Below, piece after piece: positions 15,798 through 53,180 of a stretch of 64,000 nt of DNA. This stretch comes from Bacillus sp. EB01 (GTDB lineage Bacteria > Bacillota > Bacilli > Bacillales > Cytobacillaceae), in contig NZ_HG964497.1 of NCBI RefSeq assembly GCF_000613125.1, positions 4,810,378 through 4,874,377 of the forward strand. The letters are read 5' to 3'. Positions within the stretch are counted from its first letter, which is position 1. Each line of letters starts with the position of its first letter. The notes under the pieces were generated by a model. It searched no databases. It was given only the letters and a program-made list of their open reading frames with translations, and was not told the DNA's origin. The position numbers and the translations under genes were made by a program.

Positions 15798-18209
15798 ATG
15801 GAAAATTTCTCAACATCTTTATCAGCACTGAAGGAGAGAAAAGGAGCAGTAATTGCAATTATTGCCGTCATATTAGTTCCACTGATATACGCTGCCCTGA
15901 TCCTCTCTGCTTCATGGGGACCTTATGACAACCTGTCTAATTTACCGGTTGCTGTAGTTAACAATGATGCAGGTGCTATGTCTGGAGATGAAGAAGTCAA
16001 TGTAGGCAATCAGCTTGTCGATTCACTTAAGAAAAGCATGACACTAGGTTTTAAATTTGTCAGTTCTGAAGAGGCAAAGAAGGGGATGGAGGATTTAACC
16101 TATTATATGACAATCGAAATCCCTGAGGACTTTTCACAAAGAGTTACAACAGTCCTTGAAGAAAACCCTCAAATCCCTGAACTGACTTATACACAAAATG
16201 AAGGCTTGCACTTCATGGCGGCACAGGTTACAAATAAAGCTGCAGAACAGATCAGGGAGCAGCTGGGGAACCAAATAACCGAAACTTACGTGAGGAATGT
16301 CTTTACTCAGCTTGAACAGGTGGCAGCGGGGTTCCAGGATGGCGCAGAGGGTTCAACTAAAATTAATGAGGGCTCTGTTAAACTCAAGGGTGGGACTGGC
16401 CAAATTCTTAGTTCTCTTGAAACAAAAGCACCGGATATAAGCAAGCTCGCAGATGGTGCGAAGGAGTTGAAAGCCGGGACCGGGGAACTTGCTACAAAAA
16501 TCCAGGGGGGAACTGCTGGGGTTAATCAGCTTGCAGATGGATCAAAAACATTGGCTGCTGGATTTAAACCATTTAGCGATGGGACAAATCAATTAAATGC
16601 CGGTATTTTGGCTGCAAAAAGTGGCGCGTTTAAACTTGCGAAAGGTTCTAATGACCTCAGTAAAGGACTTAATGATGCCAACAATGGAGCAATAACCCTG
16701 AATAACGGTATGAAAGAACTAAAAGCTGGAACAAATGGAGTGCTAGAGGGGTTGCAAGGAGTTCAGGGAAAGCTACCAGAACTAATTGAAGGAACTAAAA
16801 GCATCGCGGCTGGCTTGGGAGAGGCAAAAACCTCAGTAGAAACCTTGTTGGAACCTGGTGCCCGACAAGTAGCAGATGGAGTCAAACAATTATCTAAACA
16901 TCCAATTCTGGGTCCTGTGCTGCTTGCCGATAAGGATTTTCAGAGACTTCTCGAAGGCAGTGAGGCACTAGCCAACGGTATGACGTTGTATAAAAACAAA
17001 ACAGCCCCTCTCGCCCCGGGTGCACAGCGGATCGCAAATGGTCTTGATGCTGAGGACCCTAAGACGCTGGATATTAAGGGTGCTGTCGATCAATTGGTGG
17101 CTGGAAGTGATAAACTGGACAAGGGTGCTAAAGCATTGTTAGATGGATCGGGTGCTCTAGCTAATGGAACTAGTCGGCTTGCAGCAGGTGCCGGGGAGAT
17201 TGCAAAGGGCAATTCTGATTTAGCAGCCGGCACTGGAGAGCTAGCGACAGGTTCAGGCAAAATTGTCGCTGGGGCAAATGAACTTGCAGCAGGTGCTAAA
17301 AAGGTTGCTGATGGCAATGGAACTCTCCAAAGTTCTTGGACTGCATTGTCTAATGGTGCACAAAAAATTAATAATGGGATGGCACAAGTCAGTGAAGGAA
17401 ACCAAACTGTAAATACAGGCTGGGGAACACTGACAGATGGAGTTAAACAAGTCGATAACGGCATTGGTCAAATTGAAAGCGGTTCCAAGGAACTGGCCGA
17501 TGGTTTGAAGGGCGGCGCTGAAAAAGTGGGGGCTATAAGAGCGGATGATTCCAATATCGCCCAATTTGCATCCCCTGTTGCTCTTAAGCAAAACGTTTTA
17601 AACAGTTTCCCAATGTACCGTTACGCGAATGCTCCGTATGTTCTCGCACTAGCACTGTTTGTTGGTGTTTTGGTGATGACAGTTGTATTTAATATGAGAA
17701 AGCCTGATACACAAGAAGTATCCAGCTTCACCTGGTACAGTTCATTATTTAGTAAAATGGCGGGTGTTGCTGTACTGCAGGCTGTGATTGCAAGTGTTTG
17801 TACGCTGTTCTTCTTGAAGCTTTCAGCTTATCACAGTATTCTTCTGGTTATTTTTGCAATAATAGCAAGTCTTGCCTTTCTGTCAATTGTATTCTTCCTA
17901 GTAGCTGCTGCAGGTAACATTGGTAGATTCATTGCATTTGTCTTCCTGGTCCTTCAACTTTCAACCACAGGCTCAAGCTTGCCGATCGCTATGCTGCCGG
18001 AAGGATTACGAACACTAAGTACATTCCTGCCGATGCGATATGCAATCGACAGCTTCAGATCAATTATTTCACTTGATAATGCAGGTGCTGGATGGGCCAA
18101 TGCGTTTGTCCTATTATTCTTCCTGATTTCTGGTCTTGCGTTGGCAGCTGTTGTAGTATTCTTCCAAAATAAGCGATCAAATACTGCTACACCAGCAAGA
18201 GTCGCATAA
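15798..18209 (+). CDS. yhgE: YhgE/Pip family membrane protein with a long repeat-rich extracellular domain
   Basis: 803-aa protein. One N-terminal membrane segment (about 16-40, VIAIIAVILVPLIYAALILS) is followed by roughly 580 residues outside the membrane, then several membrane segments from about 610 onward resembling an ABC-2-type permease. The outer part is full of short repeats such as LADGAKELKAGTGELA and LAAGTGELATGSGK, which should form long helical rods. Relatives include B. subtilis YhgE, the phage-infection protein Pip of Lactococcus and type VII secretion accessory proteins. The substrate is unknown. The ATG has an AAAAGGAGG ribosome site. It stands alone between two terminators. 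Confidence 0.88.
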   Translation: MENFSTSLSALKERKGAVIAIIAVILVPLIYAALILSASWGPYDNLSNLPVAVVNNDAGAMSGDEEVNVGNQLVDSLKKSMTLGFKFVSSEEAKKGMEDLTYYMTIEIPEDFSQRVTTVLEENPQIPELTYTQNEGLHFMAAQVTNKAAEQIREQLGNQITETYVRNVFTQLEQVAAGFQDGAEGSTKINEGSVKLKGGTGQILSSLETKAPDISKLADGAKELKAGTGELATKIQGGTAGVNQLADGSKTLAAGFKPFSDGTNQLNAGILAAKSGAFKLAKGSNDLSKGLNDANNGAITLNNGMKELKAGTNGVLEGLQGVQGKLPELIEGTKSIAAGLGEAKTSVETLLEPGARQVADGVKQLSKHPILGPVLLADKDFQRLLEGSEALANGMTLYKNKTAPLAPGAQRIANGLDAEDPKTLDIKGAVDQLVAGSDKLDKGAKALLDGSGALANGTSRLAAGAGEIAKGNSDLAAGTGELATGSGKIVAGANELAAGAKKVADGNGTLQSSWTALSNGAQKINNGMAQVSEGNQTVNTGWGTLTDGVKQVDNGIGQIESGSKELADGLKGGAEKVGAIRADDSNIAQFASPVALKQNVLNSFPMYRYANAPYVLALALFVGVLVMTVVFNMRKPDTQEVSSFTWYSSLFSKMAGVAVLQAVIASVCTLFFLKLSAYHSILLVIFAIIASLAFLSIVFFLVAAAGNIGRFIAFVFLVLQLSTTGSSLPIAMLPEGLRTLSTFLPMRYAIDSFRSIISLDNAGAGWANAFVLLFFLISGLALAAVVVFFQNKRSNTATPARVA

Positions 18210-18216
18210 AGTTCGT

Positions 18217-18246
18217 GCCTTTGAAGCATTGCTTCAGAGGCTTTTC
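18217..18246 (+). terminator. Terminator after yhgE
   Basis: Stem GCCTTTGAAGC / GCTTCAGAGGC (one G-T pair) with a 3-nt loop and TTTT, eight bases after the yhgE stop. Confidence 0.85.
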
Positions 18247-18263: not shown

Positions 18264-18292
18264 TTGCAGAAATTATCTGAACACAATATAAT
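18264..18292 (+). promoter_or_regulatory. Sigma-A promoter of the ABC-F leader
   Basis: TTGCAG (18264-18269) and TATAAT (18287-18292) are separated by exactly 17 bp. This predicts a start near 18299, about 34 bases before the leader ORF and 365 bases before the ABC-F gene. Confidence 0.72.
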
Positions 18293-18332
18293 AAGATGAA
18301 TATATTTTGGTTTTGAAGGAGGTGGAAATGAG

Positions 18333-18464
18333 ATGAACCGTTCTGTTGGATTGCATGGTCAATTTTTGGAATTTATCTATATTTGCCGTGCAATTTTTCA
18401 TGAAATTGCTTTTAACGGGATACGTATGCCCTTTTTTGCAATTGAATTGAACACAGACCGGTAA
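18333..18464 (+). CDS. 43-codon leader ORF before the ABC-F gene
   Basis: A short ORF (ATG at 18333, TAA at 18462-18464) has a near-perfect ribosome site, GAAGGAGGTGG, just before it. The peptide is hydrophobic and aromatic in its middle and ends in a polar AIELNTDR tail. It lies between a consensus promoter and an intrinsic terminator that precedes the ABC-F ATPase gene. By analogy with the leaders of inducible ABC-F antibiotic-resistance genes (for example vmlR and lsa/vga types), it is probably a sensor ORF where a drug-stalled ribosome changes RNA folding. No similarity of the peptide itself was recognised. A two-codon start-stop (ATGAGATGA) overlaps its beginning. Confidence 0.6.
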   Translation: MNRSVGLHGQFLEFIYICRAIFHEIAFNGIRMPFFAIELNTDR

Positions 18465-18510
18465 GAGATCTCTATTTCCTCCTCGATAATATAAAACTGT
18501 GGTTTACGTG

Positions 18511-18535
18511 GGTACACACTTTAGTTTTGTACCCT
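18511..18535 (+). other. Hairpin in the ABC-F leader
   Basis: GGGTACA pairs with TGTACCC across an 11-base loop, between the leader ORF and the attenuator. It may be part of the switch or a polymerase pause signal. Confidence 0.4.
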
Positions 18536-18582
18536 AATACTTCTGGATTCCAGGAGTCCAAGCCACTTGTTACTGTCGAAAG

Positions 18583-18614
18583 GCCATGGAAGGTAACTCT
18601 TCCATGGCTTTTTT
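18583..18614 (+). terminator. Attenuator terminator before the ABC-F gene
   Basis: A perfect 10-bp stem GCCATGGAAG / CTTCCATGGC with loop GTAACT is followed by six T. It lies after the leader ORF and 50 bp before the ABC-F start, so it should stop transcription from the leader promoter unless antiterminated. Confidence 0.85.
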
Positions 18615-18663
18615 GTGATATAGCCTCTTACCATTAAATCTTAATGACGAAAGGAAGAGGAAC

Positions 18664-20544
18664 ATGACCCTTTGCAGCATACAACAAATTTCAAAGATGT
18701 TTGGCGGAAATAAAATCTTTGAAGATTTGTCTTTTGAAATACAGGAGAAAGACAGGATTGGTTTAGTTGGCCGAAATGGAACCGGAAAGACTACCATCTT
18801 TAAGTTGATGGCGGATATTGAAACTCCAGATGAAGGCAGGATTCATATTAAAAGAGGGGCCAAGATAGGGTACCTCGCCCAAATCCCGCGATATCCTCAA
18901 GGAACAATAGGCTTGAAAGTATTGCAAACAGCATTTGGTGAAGTTTTGAAAACAGCAGACCGCCTCAGGGAGCTGGAAGTAGGGATGGCAAGTGAAACGG
19001 ACGATGTAAAATTATCTAAAGACATAGAAGAGTATGGCCGATTGCAGGATGAATTCATGCTTTCAGGTGGATACGAGATGGAAGCGGATATAGGAAAAGT
19101 TGCAAATGGGTTAGGAATAAGCGATTTGCTTCATACAGAATTCGGGCAATTAAGCGGGGGTGAGCAGACAAAGATTTGTCTGGGGTTAGTCCTCCTACAG
19201 AAACCGGATTTGCTTCTGCTAGATGAGCCGACGAACCACCTAGATATTCCCGCAGTAGAATGGCTGGAGGAATACCTGAAGGAGTATGATGGAACAATCA
19301 TCTGCATTTCGCATGATCGTTATTTTCTGGATAATGTAATAACAAGGGTTTTTGACCTTGAGGACGGAGAACTAACGGTTTACCATACGAATTATTCAGG
19401 TTTTTTAAAAGAAAAAGAGGAGAGGCTGCTGCAGGAGTTCCAGGCATACCAGGAGCAGCAGAAGAAGATAAAGAAGATGAAGGAGGCAATTAAGCGGCTC
19501 AGGGAGTGGGCAAACCAAGCTAATCCACCAAACGATGGTCTTCATAAACGGGCACGGAATATGGAACGGGCACTCGAACGGATGGAAAAATTAAAACGTC
19601 CAGTTCTGGATCGGAAGCAAATGGGCCTGGAATTTGAAATAACCGACCGGAGCGGAAAAGAAGTTTTTATCATGAAAAATGTTTCGAAGACATTTGGGGA
19701 GAAGCAATTGTTTAATGAAGCAAACCTTCTTGTTCACTACCTAGATCGGACCGCAATTGTAGGCCCGAACGGCACAGGCAAATCGACTATCATTAAAATG
19801 CTCCTTGATGAAGTGAAGCCGGAAAACGGAGAAGTTAAGCTTGGAAGCAATGTGAAGATAGGCTACCTCTCTCAGCATTTTACAATAGGCGATCCCAATA
19901 TGAGGCTGATTGATGTATTCCGTGACGAGGTTCATGTAAGCGAAGGAGAGGCACGCCACATTCTGGCAAAGTTTCTTTTTTACGGCCCGAATGTATTTCG
20001 CAAGGCAGGCCAATTAAGCGGTGGGGAGAAAATGAGGCTCCGGCTTGCCCAATTGATGCACCAGGACATTAACTTCCTGGTCCTTGACGAGCCGACAAAC
20101 CACCTTGATATTGATTCGCGCGAAGTCCTTGAGGACGCATTGGAAGAGTTCAAAGGGACCATTCTCGCTGTCTCCCATGATAGATATTTTTTAAATAAAC
20201 TTTTTAAAAAGACCTACTGGCTTCATAACCGAAAGCTTCATTATTTCGAAGGAGGCTATTCCTGGGCAAAAGAGAAACTTAATGAGCTCCATTCAAAAGA
20301 GGCTGCATTTAAGCCTGAGCAGCCGCAGCAAAAACCTGTTAAACAACGAGTACAAAAGCACCAGATAATGAGTCTGGATGAAGTAGAATCTATTCTTATC
20401 AAGGTAGAGGAGAAATTATCCTCTTTGGAAACACAATTGCTACTGGAGAAAGACCTTGGTGAGCTGCAAACGTTATTTCATGAAAAAGAAAAACTCGAGA
20501 CAGAACGCGAAACCCTCTATGAGCAACTCGAGGGATTACTATAG
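18664..20544 (+). CDS. ABC-F family ATPase (ribosome-acting, possible antibiotic-resistance factor)
   Basis: 626-aa protein with two ABC ATPase domains and no membrane segments. Domain 1 has Walker A GRNGTGKT (36-43), LSGGEQ and LLLLDEPTNHLD. Domain 2 has Walker A GPNGTGKST (about 365), LSGGEKMRLRLAQL and LVLDEPTNHLD. The linker between them (about 255-320) is charged and rich in Gln/Glu/Lys, as in proteins that reach into the ribosomal P-site region. A C-terminal coiled coil (about 560-626) follows. ABC-F proteins act on stalled or drug-bound ribosomes. The inducible leader upstream favours a resistance or stress function. The exact subfamily cannot be assigned by eye. ATG preceded by AGGAAGAGG. 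Confidence 0.88.
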   Translation: MTLCSIQQISKMFGGNKIFEDLSFEIQEKDRIGLVGRNGTGKTTIFKLMADIETPDEGRIHIKRGAKIGYLAQIPRYPQGTIGLKVLQTAFGEVLKTADRLRELEVGMASETDDVKLSKDIEEYGRLQDEFMLSGGYEMEADIGKVANGLGISDLLHTEFGQLSGGEQTKICLGLVLLQKPDLLLLDEPTNHLDIPAVEWLEEYLKEYDGTIICISHDRYFLDNVITRVFDLEDGELTVYHTNYSGFLKEKEERLLQEFQAYQEQQKKIKKMKEAIKRLREWANQANPPNDGLHKRARNMERALERMEKLKRPVLDRKQMGLEFEITDRSGKEVFIMKNVSKTFGEKQLFNEANLLVHYLDRTAIVGPNGTGKSTIIKMLLDEVKPENGEVKLGSNVKIGYLSQHFTIGDPNMRLIDVFRDEVHVSEGEARHILAKFLFYGPNVFRKAGQLSGGEKMRLRLAQLMHQDINFLVLDEPTNHLDIDSREVLEDALEEFKGTILAVSHDRYFLNKLFKKTYWLHNRKLHYFEGGYSWAKEKLNELHSKEAAFKPEQPQQKPVKQRVQKHQIMSLDEVESILIKVEEKLSSLETQLLLEKDLGELQTLFHEKEKLETERETLYEQLEGLL

Positions 20545-35139: not shown

Positions 35140-35320
35140 ACTCTCTTATCCTGAGCCGGTGGAGGGACAGGCCCTACGAAGCCCGGCAACCTGCTGAAAA
35201 GCGACAGTTTTCAGAAAAGGTGCCAACCTGACGCAAGGCGATTGCCTTGAACGATAAGAGTGAAAGGCGCTAATCATTCAATTGAACCTTTCCTCTAACC
35301 AGGGAAGGTTTTTTATTTTG
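35140..35320 (+). promoter_or_regulatory. SAM-I (S-box) riboswitch with terminator
   Basis: The closing helix is CTCTTATC (35143-35150) with GATAAGAG (35253-35260). The conserved core is visible: GAGGGACAGGCCC..CGAAGCCCGGCAACC, then GGTGCCAACCTG. A terminator follows at 35285-35318 (AACCTTTCCT with AGGGAAGGTT, then T run). SAM binding is known to favour the terminator, so metK expression falls when SAM is plentiful. Confidence 0.95.
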
Positions 35321-52907: not shown

Positions 52908-52942
52908 AAATAACACTATCTCAATCCCATATAAATAACATG

Positions 52943-53180
52943 GCAGTGAGAAGGAGCAGTAGTGAAAGCGTCCCGCCTAGTAGAGAGCTGGCGGTTGGTG
53001 AAAGCCGGCCGGGACATTCATGAACTCGCCTTTGAGCCGCAGGCGTGAAGTAACAGTAATGTCTGCCGTTTTCCGCGTTAAGGATGAATGAAGCGAGTGT
53101 TTGCACACTAATGTGGGTGGTACCGCGGGAAGATACATATATCCTCTCGTCCCTTTTGTAGGGATGTGGGGATTTTTTGT
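52943..53180 (+). promoter_or_regulatory. T-box leader of leuS, leucine specific
   Basis: The AGAGAGCTGGCGG..GGTGAAAG stem I element lies at about 52983-53010. The T-box sequence TGGGTGGTACCGCGG is at 53113-53127. The specifier codon is CTC (53025-53027) in TGAACTCGCC. A terminator follows (ATCCTCTCGTCCCT with AGGGATGTGGGGAT, then T run to 53178). Uncharged tRNA-Leu is known to bind such leaders and allow readthrough, raising leuS when leucine is short. Confidence 0.94.

Follow-up and report, generated by a model that had tools for sequence, protein, structure and literature searches.

A conserved leader RNA containing an RAxF-45 reading frame probably acts as a translation-coupled attenuator of an ABC-F gene in Bacilli

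An uncharacterised ABC-F gene of Bacillus sp. EB01 is preceded by a structured leader that we interpret as a translation-coupled attenuator, a reading to which, taken as a whole, we give a probability of about 0.7. The leader lies in the window, meaning the entire 64,000-nt stretch of DNA that was analysed. In the free RNA, the Shine-Dalgarno (SD) sequence and start region of an upstream open reading frame (uORF) would pair with the end of the uORF and the sequence beyond it, forming helices P1 and P2 that enclose P3 and P4, and transcription would stop at T2, the terminator ahead of the ABC-F gene. Ribosomes held near the uORF start, for example by a translation inhibitor, would mask the 5' strands of P1/P2, and the freed 3' strand could then re-pair downstream, allowing polymerase to pass; in the window's lineage, re-pairing may also release the SD of the ABC-F gene. 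P1/P2 would serve as an anti-antiterminator. The motif at the tip of P4 would be a conserved RNA signal, and a polymerase pause site is our first guess for it. What we infer from this arrangement is that the uORF is translated, that stalling is the signal, that antitermination follows and that a drug is the inducer, and the leader probably switches resistance genes on when ribosomes stall. Ribosome-coupled attenuation of ABC-F genes is a known idea, and the logic proposed here resembles that of vmlR; the form of the RNA is apparently undescribed, spans the class, and has a core in common with the leaders of other resistance genes. The features of the locus are as follows.

18264–18292, + strand: putative sigma-A-like promoter, TTGCAG-17-TATAAT, read from the sequence; weak -35
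18264–18269, + strand: -35 element TTGCAG, 17-nt spacer to the -10
18287–18292, + strand: -10 element, exact TATAAT
18315–18325, + strand: SD of the uORF, GAAGGAGGTGG, overlapping the 5' strand of helix P1
18319–18492, + strand: predicted structured leader RNA, closing helices P1–P2 around a junction with P3 and P4 (covariance model, 142.3 bits, E 5.3e-36)
18333–18464, + strand: uORF of 43 codons, NCBIfam RAxF-45 (68.5 bits, cut-off 27)
18417–18437, + strand: RNA motif GGGAUACGUAUGCCCUUUUUU at the tip of P4, from comparison of 106 loci
18460–18468, + strand: GGUAAGAGA, 3' side of P1/P2, complementary to 18624–18632
18511–18535: hairpin between uORF and terminator, predicted at -9.5 kcal/mol, without a U tract
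18583–18614, + strand: intrinsic terminator T2, GCCATGG-type stem of 10 bp (18583–18592/18599–18608) and T6 (18609–18614)
18624–18632, + strand: CCUCUUACC, after T2, able to pair with 18460–18468 or with the ABC-F SD
18653–18662, + strand: SD of the ABC-F gene, GGAAGAGGAA, read from the sequence
18664–20544, + strand: ABC-F ATPase of 626 aa, of an uncharacterised type and not VmlR2 (NF000355, 472.5 bits, cut-off 380)

Rereading of the sequence bore out the layout proposed in the first-pass annotation, in which a promoter-like site, a 43-codon ORF and a perfect 10-bp terminator precede the ABC-F gene, with a strong SD before the ORF; the hairpin that had been placed at 18511–18535 was also recovered by prediction. 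The gene upstream ends at 18209, with a hairpin of its own (stem 18217–18241) after it. The leader region folds about six standard deviations better than its dinucleotide shuffles (z -6.05). The -35 element matches the usual consensus at only 3/6 positions, and a simple consensus scan of the window listed neither the leader promoter nor the leader terminator. An exact TATAAT occurs 25–75 nt 5' of the uORF in 56/106 RAxF-45 loci (251/2120 shuffles), and a looser 5-of-6 match gives a weaker signal (96/106 loci, 332/530 shuffles). Transcription of the ABC-F gene from a promoter after 18614 had been named as evidence that would speak against attenuation; there is little room for one, because only 49 nt separate the terminator from the ABC-F start and the consensus scan listed no promoter-like site among them. 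Elsewhere in the window, positions 189–2271 hold a 5S rRNA and, after it, a series of tRNA genes, and a T-box leader (52937–53157) and a SAM riboswitch (35143–35260) both score over their Rfam gathering thresholds.

The leader peptide, left unrecognised at first, belongs to a named family: the NCBIfam RAxF-45 profile (NF041642) matches it at 68.5 bits against a cut-off of 27. RAxF-45 is a protein family for which no described function was found, and its name was not found in the searchable literature. The window's genome has one copy, and matches over the cut-off occur in 5/8 genomes of the genus and in 176/397 sampled genomes of the order. We inspected 107 loci (L009–L115) and retained 106 after excluding L014, which scored below the cut-off and lay inside another gene; loci redundant at 80–90% identity were excluded from the coding-signature, column-covariation, helix-swap and window-pair analyses. 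Frame 0 is free of stops in 106/106 loci and the other two frames are stopped in 65 and 98, in a sample retrieved by a protein profile that favours frame 0. An SD-preceded start could be assigned in 106/106 loci by a start choice that preferred an SD. The uORFs of relatives span 34–65 codons, with a frame-0 coding signature over codons R-12 to R+4 (66 non-redundant loci) and the second F of FF lies a constant 51 nt from R in 106/106 loci. Lack of ORF conservation had been put forward as a ground for rejecting the attenuator; instead, the ORF and a terminator-like hairpin recur across many genera.

The end of the peptide, GIRMPFF, coincides with an RNA motif of consensus GG-N4-GU-N-UG-YCC-N-UUU, present in its strict form in 93/106 loci. 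Across the 106 loci the underlying codons are GGG (103), NNN, NGT (105, with one GAT), NTG (106) and YCC (103), so that third codon positions are nearly invariant while first positions are free and alter the residue (CGT/AGT/GGT, ATG/CTG/GTG, CCC/TCC). Among 33 distant loci inspected, the uORF of all seven of the L164 type ends immediately short of the motif (7/7), and the third G of the motif is C in four of them; in L117-type loci the uORF stops before the motif in 5/6, where the motif is read through by an ORF that starts with TTG in another frame. Comparison of these loci suggests that the conserved C-terminal part of the peptide mainly reflects conservation of RNA, and that the leader probably contains both a real uORF, the first part of which is conserved for its coding, and, capping P4, an RNA motif. 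RAxF-45 is thus named as a protein family, yet part of its conservation appears to lie in the RNA. The U run of the motif reads TTNTTT in 65/106 loci, and TTNTTT is given as a NusG pause motif in the accessible text of PMC9226507. A +1-frame peptide, GxVCPF, also looked coding over the motif; it was dropped because 6/106 loci have a stop in that frame immediately behind the first Gly and because the L164-type uORF ends before the motif.

Evidence for the helices came mainly from exchanging their strands among leaders. An alignment of 68 mixed loci had yielded only a GGG-YCC stem in RNAalifold, with its 3' part misregistered, and therefore the helices were tested by partner swapping, after which 27 loci of one type were folded. 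When the 5' part of each leader was joined to the 3' part of another, the mean energy rose from -33.3 kcal/mol for the leaders' own pairs to -23.4 for permuted pairs (sd 0.38, minimum -24.7 in 2000; n = 106). For single helices, tested on 72 loci under 80% identity, own partners outperformed swapped ones with z -13.6 for P1 (SD flank with sequence after the uORF), -15.9 for P2 (codons 2–9 with the uORF end), -9.5 for P3 (inside the uORF) and -16.3 for P4 (around the motif), each with 0/2000 permutations as good. Kinship could inflate these z-scores, but five non-partner window pairs, which have the same relatedness, gave only -2.3 to +0.8. Gap-free column covariation inside P3 and P4 was weak. 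RNAalifold on a sequence-only alignment of the 27 loci, hand-picked RAIF-type leaders of one type from outside the window's genus, recovered the same P1–P4 junction. In this alignment 26/50 pairs vary on both sides, giving 84 cells against 30.6 (sd 5.0) in shuffled and 29–39 in slid controls, counted on a structure predicted from the same 27 sequences. The SD and start of the uORF are therefore enclosed, as in vmlR-type leaders, in helices with post-uORF sequence whose strands coevolve (P1/P2).

We built a covariance model, R1, from the 27-locus alignment, leaving out the window's genus. Its single match in the 64-kb window at E up to 1 is 18319–18492, at 142.3 bits (E 5.3e-36). Outside training, R1 matches 79/86 loci with E no greater than 0.01; two of these, L176 and L177, are matched by P4 alone, as is L312. 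The misses are L178, the spurious locus L140 and the five other, paralogous ABC-F loci of the window's genome, where R1 has no match; with the paralogues and L140 set aside, 79/80 leaders are matched.

Linkage of the leader to its gene is nearly constant. The window's protein scores 472.5 bits against the ribosomal protection-like ABC-F model NF000355 (cut-off 380), a model that is not specific, as the genome's five other ABC-Fs include three that pass it too. Many uncharacterised ABC-F subfamilies exist, according to the portion of PMC6723617 available. An assignment of the protein as a VmlR2 orthologue was rejected, since it scores 284 bits to 8BUU against 613 for its paralogue L006, the separate VmlR2 gene of this genome at 616 kb. 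A gene of the window's type, judged by the best match among the genome's six ABC-Fs, follows the uORF in 103/106 loci; L023 and L095 are contig ends and L107 could not be assigned. The same type follows in 70/71 further class-wide loci, of which L128, L172 and L182 have partial genes only and some come from genomes already sampled. It also follows in 79/80 named loci, kept from 91 found and mainly from Rossellomorea, Neobacillus, Peribacillus, Cytobacillus, Metabacillus, Priestia and Heyndrickxia, with a contig end at L250. A survey of 199 genomes from the order gave R1 in 102, the ABC-F in 113 and the two together in 99, where 58 would be expected; the counts were made by hand from tables, and a few pairs are on different contigs. 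The ABC-F occurs without R1 in 14 genomes, four of which hold partial genes or relatives of about 43% identity. Genomes of the order such as G073, G098, G136 and G198 hold a second type of ABC-F, with about 43% identity to the window's protein.

An intrinsic terminator lies between uORF and gene, again as in vmlR-type leaders. In this interval, terminator-like hairpins above a preset score are found in 79/103 relatives and in 0/515 shuffled regions, and the T2 stem coevolves with z 19. The T2 coevolution test, the window-pair search and the duplex tests for T1, T2 and the SD covered loci with a terminator within 140 nt of the gene. The first-pass annotation had seen no obvious antiterminator by eye, and systematic searches agreed in finding none conserved for T2: its 5' arm has no conserved upstream partner (best duplexes -11.9 against -12.0 for shuffled arms, n = 72), and a coevolution search over 2061 window pairs revealed no conserved antiterminator. 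Masking the start codon or RAxF with a ribosome left the T2 stem intact in every fold inspected, that of the window among them; all three folds were inspected for 8 of 13 loci, and equilibrium folds of this kind take no account of the order in which the RNA is transcribed. A hairpin with a U tract that lies earlier in the leader, T1, occurs in 33/72 loci and was not seen in the window, and its 5' arm pairs with the 3' strand of P1 at -10.5 against a shuffled average of -7.8, over 19 testable loci of which few stand out singly. A second coevolving hairpin (z about 5) lies 16–48 nt 5' of T2 in leader loci.

Sequestration of the ABC-F SD can be drawn for one lineage. There, a strand GGUAAGAG(A/G) spans the uORF stop and is complementary to CCUCUUACC, and an exact or G-U-compatible complement is kept in 15/16 loci that hold the strand. 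A general test for SD sequestration was null (-8.1 against -7.3, n = 49). The choice of CCUCUUACC between this strand and the ABC-F SD has the geometry of the SL-4 switch that the consulted sections of PMC9226507 describe for vmlR, here in a single lineage.

Together, these comparisons show a conserved uORF, coevolving helices P1–P4, a terminator, a motif and a gene association, and they also bear on other ways of reading the leader. The RAxF peptide itself could arrest the ribosome in the manner of SecM or TnaC, alone or with a ligand, with the ABC-F protein rescuing the arrest and closing a feedback loop. SecM carries GIRAGP, which the GIRMP wording resembles, and the fixed 51-nt spacing between R and FF in 106/106 loci, together with the coding signature over codons R-12 to R+4, would suit such a sensor. 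We nevertheless consider it unlikely, given that third codon positions of GIRMPFF are nearly invariant while first positions alter the residue, and that the uORF stops before the motif in the L164-type loci and in 5/6 of the L117 type, the latter with the TTG-started ORF that reads through in another frame; the evidence that removed GxVCPF took weight from this reading too. The attenuation-type leader of the first-pass annotation is supported by the recurring ORF and terminator-like hairpin, and its suggestion of a new peptide sensor is weakened, the C-terminal conservation being mainly at the RNA level.

That the motif persists outside the uORF frame, and that it caps a junction as a nearly invariant terminal element, would fit a riboswitch in which the P1–P4 junction and motif directly bind a small molecule (perhaps a drug) and the uORF has a secondary role. 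An open frame with an SD-preceded start in 106/106 loci (the start choice favouring an SD) argues against this, as do VmlR2 leaders that have the motif only and not the whole junction, and we rate a riboswitch as slightly less probable still than a peptide sensor. Least credible of all is an independent trans-acting small RNA that lies before the ABC-F gene by chance; RliI of Listeria was once proposed to be one and was first described in this way, according to the part of PMC8079631 consulted, but throughout the class the leader is almost always linked to one gene type, which points to cis action.

For the attenuator, the closest recorded RNA is rliI (Rfam RF01487), the Listeria sRNA before lmo2760, which the accessible text of the same review reports as a putative conditional terminator of that gene, by term-seq. 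Model positions 1–239 match the leader in 8 of 20 loci (best E 0.0012), and matches occur in 25/398 genomes of the class (best E 1.5e-8), where the next ABC-F is of the window's type at 24/25 loci, one of these genes being truncated by the end of its contig. All matches fall short of the 45-bit gathering score; relatives attain up to 39, and the window itself is not matched. We regard rliI as a sub-threshold but consistent relative of the leader: the match is end-to-end in some relatives yet below threshold, and the comparison was with the Rfam model rather than the Listeria sequence. Neither uORF nor motif is mentioned in the descriptions of RliI contained in the available part of PMC8079631.

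As far as the excerpted text of PMC9226507 goes, the Bacillus subtilis vmlR leader shares with the window's a uORF start within a helix, a terminator, a downstream option for SD sequestration and a possible polymerase pause, and it controls its gene by both transcription and translation attenuation. Its uORF is the tripeptide MIN (same source), in contrast to 34–65 codons in leaders of the window's type, which also differ in their conserved junction, their GG-N4-GU-N-UG-YCC motif and their ABC-F. Listeria Rli53-lmo0919 and Rli80-hflXr and Clostridioides difficile cplR likewise place ribosome-mediated attenuation before genes for resistance to translation inhibitors, but with uORFs of 3 to 14 codons (PMC8079631, PMC6310831 and PMC10201436, each in its accessible portion).

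The motif extends to leaders of VmlR2. In this genome the VmlR2 gene (G000:C1:615995, L269/L275) has an MKL uORF, in agreement with the tripeptide MK[L/Q] printed in the accessible text of PMC10201436, and the motif GGATTCGTATGCCCTTTTTT, after which comes a near repeat. R1 gives no match at this leader. Among 29 VmlR2-type loci the motif is present in 21, about 160–215 nt before the start of the protein match, and the reversed control in 0/29. Two VmlR2 leaders are matched by Rfam ncr1575 (RF02452) at 40.8 and 59.2 bits, against a threshold of 60. In the genome as a whole the motif pattern occurs six times and its reversed control not at all; two occurrences are in ABC-F leaders (the window's and that of VmlR2) and four lie in or across unrelated coding regions. 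It was absent from the 400 nt or so inspected at each of the other four ABC-Fs.

R1 has 11 second places in the 199 genomes as well. We inspected 13 loci, comprising these 11 and the R1 matches of two of the three genomes with R1 and no ABC-F match at that threshold; gene families were checked by family search at eight and by eye at the rest. Seven precede one type of MFS transporter (L305, L307–L310, L314 and L316), with differing uORF peptides and the strict motif in six, L307 being the exception, and another MFS transporter follows at one. Single loci precede an Lsa-family ABC-F (806 bits, cut-off 750), an RsgA GTPase (where only the P4 part matches), an ABC-F of the window's type that is cut by a contig end and an ABC-F 51% identical to the 517-aa ABC-F of this genome, which we take to be YfmM-like. 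At L304, the only nearby gene is a chemoreceptor 443 nt away.

It is about an even question whether the motif, usually at a stem tip beside a uORF, marks a new class of cis-acting regulatory RNA in Bacilli, one that would sense a block in translation and regulate genes for resistance or ribosome maintenance. These would comprise several ABC-F types (the window's, VmlR2, Lsa and YfmM-like), MFS transporters and possibly the RsgA GTPase, and the RAxF-45 'protein' records would then be largely a shadow of the RNA. A literature search on the motif strings, in an index without most subscription journals, returned no publication on the subject as judged by title. The attenuator reading brings together RAxF-45, rliI, which is itself a poorly understood sRNA, and an ABC-F of uncharacterised type as a single regulatory unit that can be tested, and the motif flags candidate genes responsive to translation inhibitors before any is studied. 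Should it be a shared sensor or pause signal, it would have a bearing on the way Gram-positive bacteria activate silent intrinsic resistance.

Two further RNA elements were seen at these loci and elsewhere in the genome. The Bacillaceae-1 RNA (RF01690) scores over threshold at L312 (890–955), near the motif before the RsgA-like gene, and at the leader locus L307 (1132–1198). A P4-like hairpin, GTCACCAAGGGGGAAGTATGCCCTTTGGTGAC, lies at G000:C1:772331-772387 (L268; 22.7 bits, E 0.04), 5' of a membrane-protein ORF.
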